Source: Candidatus Peregrinibacteria bacterium | Lineage (GTDB): Bacteria; Patescibacteriota; Gracilibacteria; Peribacterales; Peribacteraceae | Assembly (NCBI GenBank): GCA_016196225.1 | Contig: JACPXZ010000004.1 | Span: 1 to 53,248, forward strand | Direction of reading: 5' to 3' | Length of the DNA: 53,248 nt | In this document: positions 2,245 to 36,447 of the stretch, piece by piece | Layout of the letters: every line of letters starts with the position of its first letter | How positions within the stretch are numbered: the first letter of the stretch is position 1 | Made by a program: the position numbers and the translations under genes | The notes under the pieces: generated by a model | What the model was told of the DNA's origin: nothing | The model's input: only the letters and a program-made list of their open reading frames with translations | Databases searched by the model: none

Positions 2245-2271
2245 GACTTCGACCTGAGAATCGCTTGCGCA

Positions 2272-2306
2272 CCCCTCCCGACGGGAGGGGACTAAGGGGA
2301 GGGGGT
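2272..2306 (+). repeat. GC-rich palindromic repeat family R1, copy 1
   Basis: A perfect palindrome CCCCTCCCG-A-CGGGAGGGG at 2272-2290 is followed by a purine tail (actaaggggaggggg). It matches, as reverse complement, the copy at 2341-2375, so the two could pair. The position right after the aminotransferase stop could also give transcription-terminating structure, but no T run follows. Confidence 0.75.
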
Positions 2307-2340: not shown

Positions 2341-2375
2341 CCCCCCCTCCTTAATCCTCCCCCTCAAGGGGGAGG
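2341..2375 (-). repeat. GC-rich palindromic repeat family R1, copy 2
   Basis: Stem CCTCCCCCT / AGGGGGAGG (2356-2364 and 2367-2375) with the tail ccccccctccttaat upstream, so the unit reads on the minus strand. It is almost identical to the copy inside leuS at 30843-30877. It lies 70 bp before the carB start. Confidence 0.75.
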
Positions 2376-9305: not shown

Positions 9306-10139
9306 ATGGTTGCCTCTCTCCATCCGCATTGGCACAGCACCGATACCGAAGAAGTTTCTGTCCCGGTGCATGCATCAAAAACCCATACAGAGCCCGTTCG
9401 CCGATATGCCGTCCGCCATCCGGCAGCAATCGTCGGTGTCATGCTGGTACTCGGACTCGGAATGGTATTTGTACGTGGCGTTCAGGAATTGCGGGGACAA
9501 GCAGGTGGTTCTCCGGTCATTATTCGTATCACTCCTGCCGGACTGGAACCCCAGGATGTGTCTCTCTCCCCCGGACAAACGATCACGTGGCGTAACGAAC
9601 AGGATGCCCCCCATATCCTCACATCCGACGCACTTCCGGTCGAGGGAGGAATACTCTCGACTCCCCATATTCTCCCCGGCACTGACTTCAGCGCGCGTAT
9701 CGCGCCGGATGCTGAGCCTGGCAACTTCACCTATGTCTCTCTTACAGCAGAAAACATTACCGGAACGGTGACGATCGCGGCTCCTGCGCCCACTCCTCTG
9801 CCCTCCTCCATCGCCGCTCCAGTCTCCGCCGGACCCTCACGACCCATCGCCGCTCCAGTCTCCGCCGGACCCTCACGACCCATCGCGCCATTGGCATCGA
9901 TCCCGCGGAATCCCTACGCTCTGGAAGGAACGCCCATTCCTCCATCTCCCGCTCTATCCCCGCAGATCCCTCCGCTCCCGCCCTCCTCCAGAGGGACGCC
10001 TCTCCCCCCCCTTGCTGCAAGCGTTCGCCCCTTCACTCAACCCCAAACGGGTCCGCGCGGCATGGGCGCCGCATTGATCATCAGTATGATTCTCGTCGTG
10101 GGCCTCTGCGTCCGTCTCACACGAAAAGGACACTCTTGA
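9306..10139 (+). CDS. Membrane-anchored cupredoxin-like protein with Pro-rich stalk
   Basis: A 277-aa protein. A cytosolic N-terminus of about 40 residues (HPHWHSTDTEEVSVPVHASK) is followed by a membrane segment (PAAIVGVMLVLGLGMVFV), a plastocyanin-like beta sandwich at about 72-155 (VSLSPGQTITWRNEQDAPHIL, PGNFTYVSLTAENITGTVTI), a Pro/Ala/Ser stalk and a second membrane helix near the C-terminus (GAALIISMILVVGLCV). One His of the copper site is present (APHIL) but the usual Cys and Met ligands after FTY are not, so copper binding is doubtful. The stalk holds a perfect 12-residue duplication (IAAPVSAGPSRP). It belongs to the dockerin operon. Function unknown; electron transfer is unlikely given the missing ligands. 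Confidence 0.7.
   Translation: MVASLHPHWHSTDTEEVSVPVHASKTHTEPVRRYAVRHPAAIVGVMLVLGLGMVFVRGVQELRGQAGGSPVIIRITPAGLEPQDVSLSPGQTITWRNEQDAPHILTSDALPVEGGILSTPHILPGTDFSARIAPDAEPGNFTYVSLTAENITGTVTIAAPAPTPLPSSIAAPVSAGPSRPIAAPVSAGPSRPIAPLASIPRNPYALEGTPIPPSPALSPQIPPLPPSSRGTPLPPLAASVRPFTQPQTGPRGMGAALIISMILVVGLCVRLTRKGHS
9810..9881 (+). repeat. Perfect 36-bp tandem duplication in the cupredoxin-like gene
   Basis: Two identical 36-nt units, 9810-9845 and 9846-9881, encode IAAPVSAGPSRP twice, and a third partial unit (atcgcg) follows. The identity at third codon positions indicates a very recent duplication of the stalk, probably by replication slippage. Confidence 0.9.
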
Positions 10140-13858: not shown

Positions 13859-13890
13859 TATACATCAATTAATTGATTAATTGATATGTA
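13859..13890. repeat. AT-rich palindrome, copy 1
   Basis: A 32-bp near-palindrome whose left 15 bases TATACATCAATTAAT are identical to those of copy 2 at 14017-14048, starting 158 bp later. The right arm differs only in the last bases (gatatgta instead of gatgtata). The 400-bp gap 13713-14112 holds these two copies and the tRNA-Tyr promoter, but no gene I can support. Confidence 0.8.
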
Positions 13891-14016: not shown

Positions 14017-14048
14017 TATACATCAATTAATTGATTAATTGATGTATA
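14017..14048. repeat. AT-rich palindrome, copy 2 (perfect)
   Basis: Perfect inverted repeat: arms TATACATCAATTAAT and ATTAATTGATGTATA around a 2-nt centre (TG). It lies 25 bp upstream of the tRNA-Tyr -35 box. Possible roles are an operator pair for a dimeric regulator, ends of a small mobile element, or an attachment site beside the tRNA; the sequence does not decide. Confidence 0.85.
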
Positions 14049-17455: not shown

Positions 17456-18326
17456 AAAACCGCAGCAGCATAAGGGCATGCATCGCCTCCTCCATCCGCT
17501 GATGTACATCCGGAAGGGCAATCCCCTCTTGTTCCAACTTCCCATTACTCAATACGCAATTACTCCGACCCGTCCGCGCCACCTCAGGAAGATCCGCAAG
17601 AGTAAGCCGTTCGAATTCATGTTCGGGTTGAACAATTTTTTTGTACAAATTCATAATATCGAAGGGCGACATCGTCCCGGGATTGACCATGTTATAGATC
17701 CCGATCGCGCGCTTTTCGATCAATGTTTTTGCCGTATCCAGCAAATCCGGAATATACGTGAGAGAATTCTGGACATCGAGCACTCTCTTATATTTGCAAA
17801 GCTTTATAATGAGATTGCGATCACTCGGCATAGAGTCAAACGGCATCCGGAGTCTCAGAATAAGAATATTAGGGAAGTCTTTGAGGATTTGCTCCGACCA
17901 GAGCTTTGTCTTTGAGTAAAAACTGCCAAAGAAGTTGGGTGGATCTTCTTCCGTAAAACCACAGTCGGATCCCCCCCCCTTCCTCCCCCCCCGATGGGGG
18001 GGGTGTCCCCCGCCTTCATAAATACAACCAGAACTTAAGTGCACCCAATAGATTCCTCGTTTGCTACATTCTTCGAGAAGAACAAGCGGACCAGTTACAT
18101 TTGATCGAAGCGTTTCGATTTTGTGCTCCTCACACCAGTCGATGTTGGGGCGACCGGTTTTCCCTGCAGTATTAATCACGACATCCGGTTTTTCAGTATC
18201 CAGAATACGGGCCAGTTCCTTTGTATCCGCAATATCAACGTTAGAGGTCTCTGCATCGGGATACAGCGACAAAAATCGCTGTCCGAGATACCCCCGCCCA
18301 CCGAGAATCAGAACACGCATAGACAT
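17442..18326 (-). CDS. NAD(P)-dependent sugar-nucleotide reductase (rhamnose-synthesis type)
   Basis: A 294-aa extended short-chain dehydrogenase. The Rossmann motif LGGRGYLG opens the protein, HLSSGCIYE follows, and the catalytic YxxxK is FYSKTK. The sequence GFTEEDPPNFFGSFYSKTK and the segment LRLRMPFDSMPSDRNLI with YNMVNPGTMS closely resemble the epimerase/reductase half of eukaryotic nucleotide-rhamnose synthases, so TDP/UDP-4-keto-6-deoxy sugar reduction is the likeliest reaction. A repeat-derived peptide (GGGHPPHRGGRKGGGSD) interrupts the loop between SSGCIYE and GFTEED; see the repeat at 17969-18012. Starts at 18326 and 18320 are both possible. It runs divergently from ftsK with about 41 bp between starts. 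No other rhamnose genes are in the window. Confidence 0.82.
   Translation of the reverse strand: MSMRVLILGGRGYLGQRFLSLYPDAETSNVDIADTKELARILDTEKPDVVINTAGKTGRPNIDWCEEHKIETLRSNVTGPLVLLEECSKRGIYWVHLSSGCIYEGGGHPPHRGGRKGGGSDCGFTEEDPPNFFGSFYSKTKLWSEQILKDFPNILILRLRMPFDSMPSDRNLIIKLCKYKRVLDVQNSLTYIPDLLDTAKTLIEKRAIGIYNMVNPGTMSPFDIMNLYKKIVQPEHEFERLTLADLPEVARTGRSNCVLSNGKLEQEGIALPDVHQRMEEAMHALMLLRFYACK
17969..18012 (-). repeat. R1 palindromic repeat inserted in the sugar-reductase gene
   Basis: Arms of eight C and eight G (17985-17992 and 17996-18003) around GAT, with a C-rich tail, in frame inside the coding region. It is translated as PPHRGGRKGGG, similar to the leuS insert PHRGRIKEGG. Confidence 0.8.
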
Positions 18327-30591: not shown

Positions 30592-33084
30592 TTACTCGTC
30601 AACGACAAAATTGACAAGTTTGCTTTTCACCACGATTTCTTTTGTGATGATCTTCCCCCTGAGAAAGGTTTGGACATGCGGATGGTCTTTTGCCAACTGC
30701 ACGATATGTTCCTGCGTACTTTCGCGATTCACATCAATATTCGCCCGCACCTTTCCATTGATCTGCACCACTATCGTCATGGTATCGGATAACAAGAATT
30801 TTGGATCGAACGTTGGCCAACATTGATTCACTATAAACTCTCTACCCCCCTCCTTAATCCTCCCCCTATGGGGGAGGTGCCCCCCCACCTTCGCTAAGGC
30901 TACGGCGGGCAGGCGCGGGGGGAGGGAAATTTTTTCCCACAATTCTTCCGCCAAGTGCGGGGCCATTGGACTCAAGAGCAGTACAAAAATTTTTGCTGTT
31001 TCTTCATCCATCCCCCTTTTTTCGACCGCATTCAAAAATTCCATCAATGCAGCAATGGCGGTATTAAACCGGAAGTTCTCAATATCTTCTGTCACCTTCT
31101 TTACCGTCTTATGCAACAACCTTTCTATATCCTTTCCCTCATTATTTTTCTTGATTCCCTTTTCAAATAGTCTCCAAACCCTCTGCACAAATCTTTCAAT
31201 CCCTTTTATCCCCGTATCACTCCAGTCGCCTCCATCGGTGAACGGCCCCATGAACATGAGATACATCCGGAAGACATCGGACCCGTATCGTTCCACAAAC
31301 GTATCAGGAGAAACGACGTTTCCCCTGGACTTACTCATTTTTGCCCCTTTATTCGTAATAAGCCCTTGATGAATCAATTTTTTGAACGGTTCTTCACTTG
31401 ATACATAGCCAAAATCATTAAGTGCCATCATTATAAATCGCGCATAGATGAGATGCATGCATGCATGCTCCGGTCCCCCGATGTACAGATCCACCGGCAT
31501 CCACTTTTTTTCGAGATGGGGATCGATAAACTTTTTCAAATCTCCTTCCATCAAAAAACGCAAATAGTAAAACGACGAACAAACGAAGGTGTCCATCGTG
31601 TCGAACTCCGGCACCCACCCCTTCCCGAATATTTTTTCTGTCCGCTCTCTAAATTCTTTGGAATGTTTGAGCGGAGATTCGCCTGTGGGTTTAAATTCGA
31701 CATCGGTCGGGAGGAGCCACGGCAAATGCTTTTCGGGGATCGGATGAGGGTTTCCATCCGGATCGTATACGACCGGTATCGGCGCCCCCCAATACCGTTG
31801 ACGGGAAACAAGCCAGTCGCGGAGGCGATATTGCACCTGATGCCGCCCGATTTCTTTATCTTCCAACCATGCTACGATCTTCTTTTTTGCTTCTGATGTT
31901 TTGAGCCCATTGAGGAAACTGGAGTTGATACAGGTACCGTCAGTGGTAAACGCTGCTAAGGAATTTTCTACCCCCTCTCCCGTACCCTCCCCCCGAGGGG
32001 GAGGGGCAACCACTTCCTTCACTGGCAAATCGTATGTCTTGGCAAATTCCCAGTCCCTCTCATCGTGAGCGGGGACTGCCATCACCGCTCCCGTGCCGTA
32101 ACTTGAAAGAACGTAATCGGCAATCCAGACGGGGATTTCTTCTTCGGTTGCAGGATTGATGGCATATGCGCCGGTCCAGACACCTGTTTTTACTTTATTC
32201 AAATCCGTCCGTTCGAGATCGGTCTTTTTACGCACGTTTTCCTGATATGCATGGACTGCTCCGATATGACCCTTAGGGGTGATCGTCTCGACCATCGGGT
32301 GCTCCGGCGCGAGCACGATATACGTCGCCCCAAAGAGCGTATCGGGCCTCGTCGTAAATACCGTAATGTTTGATGATTCATTTTTAATGTTAAATTCGAT
32401 GACCGCACCTTCGCTCTTACCAATCCAGTTGCGTTGCATGAGCTTCGTTTTTTCCGGCCAATCCAAATGTTCTAACCCATCGAGCAGCCGCCCCGCGAAG
32501 TCCGTGATCCTGAAAAACCATTGCGGGAGCGGTTTTTGGATCACCTGCGTCTCACACCGTTCGCAATGCCCATCCTGACACTGTTCGTTGGCAAGAACCG
32601 TCTGACACGATGAACAATAATTCACATGCGCTTCCTTCTTATAGGCAAGACCGTGTTTATACATCTCCAGGAACAACCACTGGGTCCAGCGATAGTACTC
32701 CGGACTCGACGTATTAAGACTTTTGCTCCAGTCGAATGTCACTCCCATCCGTTTAAATTGCTGGATCATGTTTGTAACATTCTCCTGCGTAGACGTCGCT
32801 GGAGGGATGCCGCTCTTAATGGCAAAATTTTCTGCCGGGAGCCCAAAGGCATCAAATCCCATCGGATGGAAGACCTCTTTCCCCTTCATCCGCAAAAACC
32901 GGACATAGCTATCAGGAATGGAATACTGATACCAATGCCCCACATGCAACTGTGCTCCACTTGGATAGGGGAACATCACGAGGCAATAAAACGGATCAGG
33001 GGCCTTTTTAAGATCGAATTGAAATACGTGAGCCTCCTCCCATGCAGCTTGCCACTTTTTTTCGGTATTTTGTGCATTGTACAT
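30592..33084 (-). CDS. leuS: Leucyl-tRNA synthetase carrying two repeat-derived inserts
   Basis: An 830-aa class I synthetase that charges tRNA-Leu. HIGH motif FPYPSGAQLHVGHW (about 36-49), zinc-type knuckle CSSCQTVLANEQCQDGHCERC, CP1 editing domain with VFTTRPDTLFGATY, KMSKS as KGAKMSKSRGN, and the anticodon and C-terminal domains (TIVVQINGKVRANIDV). Two stretches are not part of the family: APPPRGEGTGEGVE in the editing domain (31970-32006) and LPAVALAKVGGHLPHRGRIKEGG near the C-terminal domain (30843-30912), both encoded by palindromic repeats seen elsewhere in the window. Reading stays in frame across both. A -10 TAAGAT (33091-33096) ends 6 nt before the ATG. It is divergent from deoC. 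Confidence 0.95.
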   Translation of the reverse strand: MYNAQNTEKKWQAAWEEAHVFQFDLKKAPDPFYCLVMFPYPSGAQLHVGHWYQYSIPDSYVRFLRMKGKEVFHPMGFDAFGLPAENFAIKSGIPPATSTQENVTNMIQQFKRMGVTFDWSKSLNTSSPEYYRWTQWLFLEMYKHGLAYKKEAHVNYCSSCQTVLANEQCQDGHCERCETQVIQKPLPQWFFRITDFAGRLLDGLEHLDWPEKTKLMQRNWIGKSEGAVIEFNIKNESSNITVFTTRPDTLFGATYIVLAPEHPMVETITPKGHIGAVHAYQENVRKKTDLERTDLNKVKTGVWTGAYAINPATEEEIPVWIADYVLSSYGTGAVMAVPAHDERDWEFAKTYDLPVKEVVAPPPRGEGTGEGVENSLAAFTTDGTCINSSFLNGLKTSEAKKKIVAWLEDKEIGRHQVQYRLRDWLVSRQRYWGAPIPVVYDPDGNPHPIPEKHLPWLLPTDVEFKPTGESPLKHSKEFRERTEKIFGKGWVPEFDTMDTFVCSSFYYLRFLMEGDLKKFIDPHLEKKWMPVDLYIGGPEHACMHLIYARFIMMALNDFGYVSSEEPFKKLIHQGLITNKGAKMSKSRGNVVSPDTFVERYGSDVFRMYLMFMGPFTDGGDWSDTGIKGIERFVQRVWRLFEKGIKKNNEGKDIERLLHKTVKKVTEDIENFRFNTAIAALMEFLNAVEKRGMDEETAKIFVLLLSPMAPHLAEELWEKISLPPRLPAVALAKVGGHLPHRGRIKEGGREFIVNQCWPTFDPKFLLSDTMTIVVQINGKVRANIDVNRESTQEHIVQLAKDHPHVQTFLRGKIITKEIVVKSKLVNFVVDE
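30843..30912 (-). repeat. Composite R1 + R2 repeat inside leuS
   Basis: R1: CCTCCCCC / GGGGGAGG (30859-30866 and 30870-30877) with the tail taccccccctccttaat. R2 follows at 30886-30912 and matches the repeat in ftsK. Together they add about 23 residues in frame near the C-terminal domain. Confidence 0.85.
31970..32006 (-). repeat. R1 repeat inside the leuS editing domain
   Basis: Arms CCCTCCCCC / GGGGGAGGG (31985-32005) followed on the minus strand by tacgggagaggggg. Translated in frame as APPPRGEGTGEGVE. Confidence 0.8.
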
Positions 33085-34089: not shown

Positions 34090-34127
34090 TTTTTCCCTCC
34101 CCCGACGGGGGAGGGCCAGGGAGAGGA
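34090..34127 (+). repeat. R1 repeat between deoC and der
   Basis: CCCTCCCCC-GAC-GGGGGAGGG followed by ccagggagagg. Intergenic copy of the family; its hairpin could also block read-through, though no T run follows. Confidence 0.75.
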
Positions 34128-34143
34128 AAATACGCACACGTGA

Positions 34144-36401: not shown

Positions 36402-36447
36402 GCGCTACCCCCCCCCTTCTCCATCCTCCCCCGCCGGGGGAGGTACC
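36402..36447 (-). repeat. R1 repeat downstream of mltG
   Basis: CCTCCCCC / GGGGGAGG stem around GCCG with the tail gctaccccccccttctccat. It lies immediately after the mltG stop (36452), between mltG and the small secreted protein, both on the minus strand. Confidence 0.75.

Follow-up and report, generated by a model that had tools for sequence, protein, structure and literature searches.

Box C-type palindromic repeats in frame within leuS and other genes of a Peribacteria genome

A short palindromic repeat, R1, is dispersed through the genome of a member of the Peribacteraceae and lies in frame within many housekeeping genes, among them the gene for leucyl-tRNA synthetase (leuS), which contains two copies. 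A genome search, comparisons with homologs and Pfam domain assignments each bear out this description, which an earlier note on leuS had anticipated. Judged by its sequence, R1 is a form of the Box C motif of Escherichia coli, also called the intrastrand-triplex (PIT or TM) motif. The translation of palindromes inside genes was already known, and what is new is that the Box C / TM family is heavily intragenic in Patescibacteria. In an incomplete search of the literature, we came across no description of intragenic Box C / TM repeats, whether in Patescibacteria or elsewhere. The window, the 53,248-nt stretch of DNA that we analyzed, is contig C12 of a 1.085-Mb genome assembled in 38 contigs (97.7% complete). 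The closest named relatives of its LeuS protein belong to Candidatus Peribacteria / Peribacteraceae, which places the genome in the Patescibacteria (CPR).

Architecture and identity of R1

We compared R1 searches with reversed patterns in the genome, shuffled sequence in the 53-kb window and shuffled tails in a test of mirror symmetry. The R1 core CCTCCCCnnnnnGGGGAGG, allowing up to two mismatches, occurs at 82 sites per strand in the genome versus 7 for the reversed control. A stricter CCTCYCC form gave 59 exact degenerate matches versus 0, and the genome-wide count is thus above chance. The window contains 24 matches, compared with a mean of 1.56 and a maximum of 6 in shuffles. Sequence inspection and the window pattern search confirmed that the four intergenic copies reported earlier at 2272, 2341, 34090 and 36402 are real (Table 1). 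The window also contains a 32-nt AT-rich near-palindrome, TATACATCAATTAATTGATTAATTGATATGTA, that occurs twice 158 nt apart (13859-13890 and 14017-14048), and a perfect direct tandem duplication of 36 nt at 9808-9879.

Table 1. leuS, R1 copies and the nested second repeat in the window
Feature	Position	Strand	Evidence
leuS, leucyl-tRNA synthetase, 830 aa, with two in-frame R1 repeats	30592..33084	-	ORF, Pfam
Composite R1a repeat within leuS, 86 nt: R1a hairpin, nested second repeat, closing G-rich arm	30844..30929	+	
R1 core palindrome CCTCCCCC-TAT-GGGGGAGG, within leuS	30859..30877	.	
CTTCGCTAAGGCTACGGCGGGCAGG, another dispersed repeat, lying inside the leuS R1 composite	30889..30913	+	
R1b repeat within the leuS editing domain	31970..32006	+	
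Intergenic R1 variant CCCCTCCC-GAC-GGGAGGGG, one half of a doublet	2271..2306	-	
Intergenic R1a copy, doublet partner of the 2271-2306 copy	2342..2375	+	
Degenerate intergenic R1 copy (C8-GAT-G8), seventh in the window, missed by the earlier note	17971..18003	+	
Intergenic R1b copy, downstream of a deoC-like gene	34095..34130	-	
Intergenic R1a copy, adjoining the 3' end of an mltG/yceG-like gene	36408..36443	+	

The R1 unit is about 36 nt long and consists of three blocks separated by two loops: a C-rich block, its G-rich complement and a mirror copy of the latter. Mirror symmetry between the second and third blocks held at 7.67 of 8 positions across 52 copies, versus 5.82 of 8 for shuffled tails. 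The core loop is 3 nt long in 54 of 64 copies and is occupied by about 20 different trinucleotides; the stems are near-constant. Copies were assigned an orientation and a subfamily (R1a, R1b or R1c) by rule, and R1a, a near-perfect mirror, dominates. Oligonucleotides of E. coli Box C fold as a triplex in vitro (PMC4666352), and the symmetry of R1 suggests that it may form one too.

Since a unit of about 36 nt corresponds to about 12 codons, exact insertions are frame-neutral whatever their origin. R1 repeats in frame with a 36-nt period in a tandem array at L076:9743-10129 (C38:38742-39128 of this genome), where three R1a units are found (APLLYPPPQGEV three times). We considered whether the 36-nt unit represents a coding adaptation and rejected this idea. 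The 3-nt loop is equally dominant in intergenic copies and in the genomes of the relatives G019 and G012, which indicates that the 36-nt length is a property of the family.

R1 is not a new element. The consensus and the matches in E. coli place it in the Box C / TM family, described for E. coli (TM_ECO) by Holder et al. 2015 (PMC4666352). R1 and Box C share a three-block architecture, a length of 34-37 nt, the consensus CCCTCTCCC-nnn-GGGAGAGGG-TTA-GGGTGAGGG, variable loops with more conserved stems, close inverted pairs and the lack of a known transposase. When a 41-nt R1c copy was searched against E. coli, 5,359 of 5,426 genomes matched, at a median of 17 places, and none of 60 matched records sampled down the ranking had an annotated feature beneath the match. 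R1a differs from E. coli Box C in its stem (CCTCCCCC/GGGGGAGG), and its third block is changed to match.

Two other repeat systems resemble R1. As reviewed in PMC10969869, Rickettsia palindromic elements (Ogata et al. 2000, 2002) also lie in frame in many unrelated genes, with nearly half of the copies genic, but they are about 150 bp long and have other sequences. The likeness noted earlier is one of behavior and not of sequence. The GTAG/CGTC REPs (Di Nocera et al. 2013, PMC3733652) are short palindromes that occur as singles and dimers and in frame in genes, including some tRNA synthetase and repair genes in several species. R1 differs from them in that both tags are absent, a mirror third block is present and no association with RAYT was seen.

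Two inserts in leucyl-tRNA synthetase

Both R1 palindromes that had been reported in leuS were confirmed to lie within its single open reading frame, which encodes the Pfam editing, catalytic and anticodon domains. The editing-domain copy adds about 12 residues (LeuS 361-372, PPPRGEGTGEGV). The C-terminal insert had been described as 12 residues long. It exists, but it spans about 26 residues (722-747) because R1 is joined there to another repeat, CTTCGCTAAGGCTACGG, in a composite.

We aligned the window's LeuS with 44 relatives, rows that represent fewer than 44 independent genomes because some loci are one genome present in two collections (for example, L089/L109 and L085/L107). The window's LeuS is at most 72% identical to these relatives. 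Neither R1 peptide was found in any of the 44 aligned sequences, and the peptides are thus not common to distant relatives. Comparison with outgroups at this level of identity suggests that the inserts were gained in this lineage and not deleted in the relatives. Both inserts leave the residues that are invariant in the alignment untouched and the Pfam domains undisturbed, in agreement with the earlier statement that the synthetase motifs are intact.

An AlphaFold2 model of LeuS built from 35 sequences (mean pLDDT 84.6) contains four segments with pLDDT below 50. Two of these, 366-377 and 723-747, are the inserts, which appear as coil between well-modelled elements. The other two (46-49 and 586-589) are short catalytic-site loops that, by position, we take to be the HIGH and KMSKS motif regions. 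Stable structures are predicted for the coding strand of leuS (-53.5 and -19.9 kcal/mol), the former being a closed multi-hairpin formed by the composite repeat.

The C-terminal insert lies between the ELWE-x-LGG helix and the QxWP motif. The nested repeat TTCGCTAAGGCTACGG (30890-30905) occurs at 16 sites in the genome versus 1 in the control. FAKASGG-type peptides occupy the same alignment position in L079, L083, L094 and L105, and other peptides are found there in L089/L109 (SFRAQSRSDTSS), L103 (RDSERSEESSRT) and L082. The FAKASGG DNA repeat belongs to the same family as the nested second repeat and lies inside leuS of G022, G027 and G030, where we verified its coordinates. An RDSERSEES-type peptide also occurs at the site; its status as a repeat in G008 is weak, as that genome contains no more than two near-matches to its DNA. 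Because the site holds different repeat peptides in several genera, we conclude that it is a recurrent insertion point at which several repeats have landed. A broader reading is possible but doubtful: unrelated small folding repeats (Box C, CTTCGCCAAGGCTACGG types and others) may have been planted independently and repeatedly at the same permissive protein loop in this lineage. Structured repeats of about 12 codons would then be a general, frame-neutral source of new loops that spread without a transposase.

R1 within genes across the genome

We examined the placement of R1 over about 0.79 Mb of the 1.085-Mb genome, with genes called by a purpose-built dicodon model (coding fraction 0.85; some gene-end calls are doubtful). 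Called genes contained 30 of 64 copies overall and 24 of the 47 copies with a clear orientation. Given the expected fraction of 0.85 (p = 6e-8), R1 is depleted in genes, yet it is far from excluded. By our calculation from these counts, R1 density is about fivefold lower in genes than between them. Box C in E. coli, in contrast, is always intergenic (PMC4666352), which is a reported property and not part of the motif definition. Intergenic R1 copies are found in tandem and convergent gaps, although these numbers are small.

R1 is in frame within leuS and at least fifteen other genes, where it adds about 12 to 26 amino acids. Eighteen copies lie more than 40 nt inside genes, 10 in sense and 8 in antisense orientation. 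The repeat is read in several frames, giving peptides such as PPPRGEG, HLPHRGRIKEGG, TSPIGGGLRRG and PLLNPPPKGEV. An open frame at R1 is partly built into gene calling, and for some copies at gene ends translation is doubtful; comparisons with homologs provide independent evidence. Alignment with solved homologs showed an 18-residue gap at R1 in MiaA, a 17-residue gap in FolP, and a gap or alignment break in Rpe, SufU/IscU, MnmA, TrmH, LeuS and DeoB. These gaps and breaks support the identification of R1 as an insertion. Pfam domains span R1 in ATP-citrate lyase (two copies), IleS, a PMT mannosyltransferase, an alpha/beta hydrolase, a glycosyltransferase and a polysaccharide pyruvyl transferase. 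Host enzymes apparently tolerate R1 peptides in loops. The peptides are presumably made and near-neutral. Among 32 copies inspected in four related genomes, 8 fell in called genes, and one of the host genes looks from its sequence like GatB. An IleS-like protein of 1,188 aa (L059:16436-19999; C22:76436-79999) contains two inserted histidine-phosphatase (His_Phos_1) domains within the synthetase in addition to its R1 insert.

Origin and spread of genic copies

We consider it very probable that within the Box C / TM family R1 forms the Peribacteria branch and that its genic copies are tolerated survivors, translated as loop linkers. In this model, R1 copies would multiply within the genome and those landing in genes would mostly be lost, with a surviving fraction that we estimate at about one-fifth relative to intergenic copies. 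Genic copies would survive because they are about 12 codons long, are open in most of the six frames and land in surface loops. The survivors would be translated as disordered linkers rich in Pro, Gly and Arg, and leuS would carry two of them.

R1 could alternatively be a non-autonomous element of the REP/REPIN type whose single-stranded hairpin is excised and pasted by an HUH/Y1 tyrosine transposase (RAYT). R1 does form a hairpin with an asymmetric tail and is frequently found in doublets, and Y1_Tnp domains are present in 32 of the 59 genomes that we searched, including this one. The repeat also has a strand bias with respect to GC skew, though a weak one (32 of 47 copies, p = 0.019). This bias would fit a single-strand or replication-linked process without being proof of one; a strong replication-strand bias was rejected. 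However, the numbers of R1 copies and Y1_Tnp domains were uncorrelated among 35 genomes of the family (rho 0.01), and 5 of 10 R1-rich relatives (at least 10 copies) lacked Y1_Tnp. The tags of known REPs were rare or missing at R1 (GTAG at 6 of 47 copies, CGTC at 0 of 47). Contigs C4, C6 and C18, which bear the Y1 genes of this genome, contain no R1, either beside those genes or elsewhere, though these contigs are short and of doubtful membership. Mobilization by RAYT/Y1 thus finds no support in the family search, the flanking sequences, the correlation of copy numbers or the tags, and we consider it unlikely. The earlier note had called R1 a selfish or structural DNA element; we were unable to link it to a transposase, a tag or a target duplication.

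Genic copies might instead be kept for a function; for example, a hairpin or triplex could delay translation or replication, or the peptide could serve as a useful linker. The stable structures predicted for leuS and the conservation of stems beside variable loops would fit such a role. Against it, R1 lies in unrelated genes, in both orientations and in several frames, encodes differing peptides and is not conserved between genera; E. coli Box C had no promoter, terminator or polymerase effect when tested (PMC4666352). We regard a retained function as quite improbable. R1 is also GC-rich and simple, and its peptides might be common Pro/Gly-rich linkers, or artefacts of assembly, with no more than a resemblance to a repeat. 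This explanation is highly implausible given the near-exact stems common to genic and intergenic copies, the zero count of the reversed control, the genic inserts of the same kind in related genomes (8 of 32 copies) and the absence of the inserted segments from leuS relatives.

Nearly every E. coli genome carries Box C / TM repeats, which were reported from that species as confined to intergenic DNA and lack an established means of spreading. That about half of R1 copies sit in open frames in housekeeping genes suggests that the intergenic confinement of Box C reflects selection and not insertion preference. This small-genome lineage offers many natural R1 insertions, whose boundaries, choice of target and age could be determined. 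Annotators should be aware that peptides such as PPPRGEG, HLPHRGRIKEGG and FAKASGG derive from repeats when they occur in candidate-phyla proteins.

Several observations concern Y1 transposases themselves. The contigs that carry them in this assembly, C4 (L023), C6 (L025) and C18 (L036), may be foreign to the genome. Around the Y1 gene and the histidine-kinase genes of C4 lie many copies of GTAGTCGCCCGATTTATCGGGC, a REP with the canonical GTAG tag; this contig may be contamination of the assembly. The LeuS proteins of relatives L211 (G010), L213 (G002), L105 (G030), L214 (G020), L215 (G035) and L220 (G026) contain an in-frame Y1_Tnp domain (an IS200-type HUH transposase) between residues at about 235-240; the window's LeuS lacks this domain. 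The HxH motif and the tyrosine helix are conserved in the five complete LeuS-borne domains. A class I synthetase of G041 (L216) likewise holds Y1_Tnp, and Y1 matches were found in open reading frames of about 950-1,240 aa in G062, G071 and G138.
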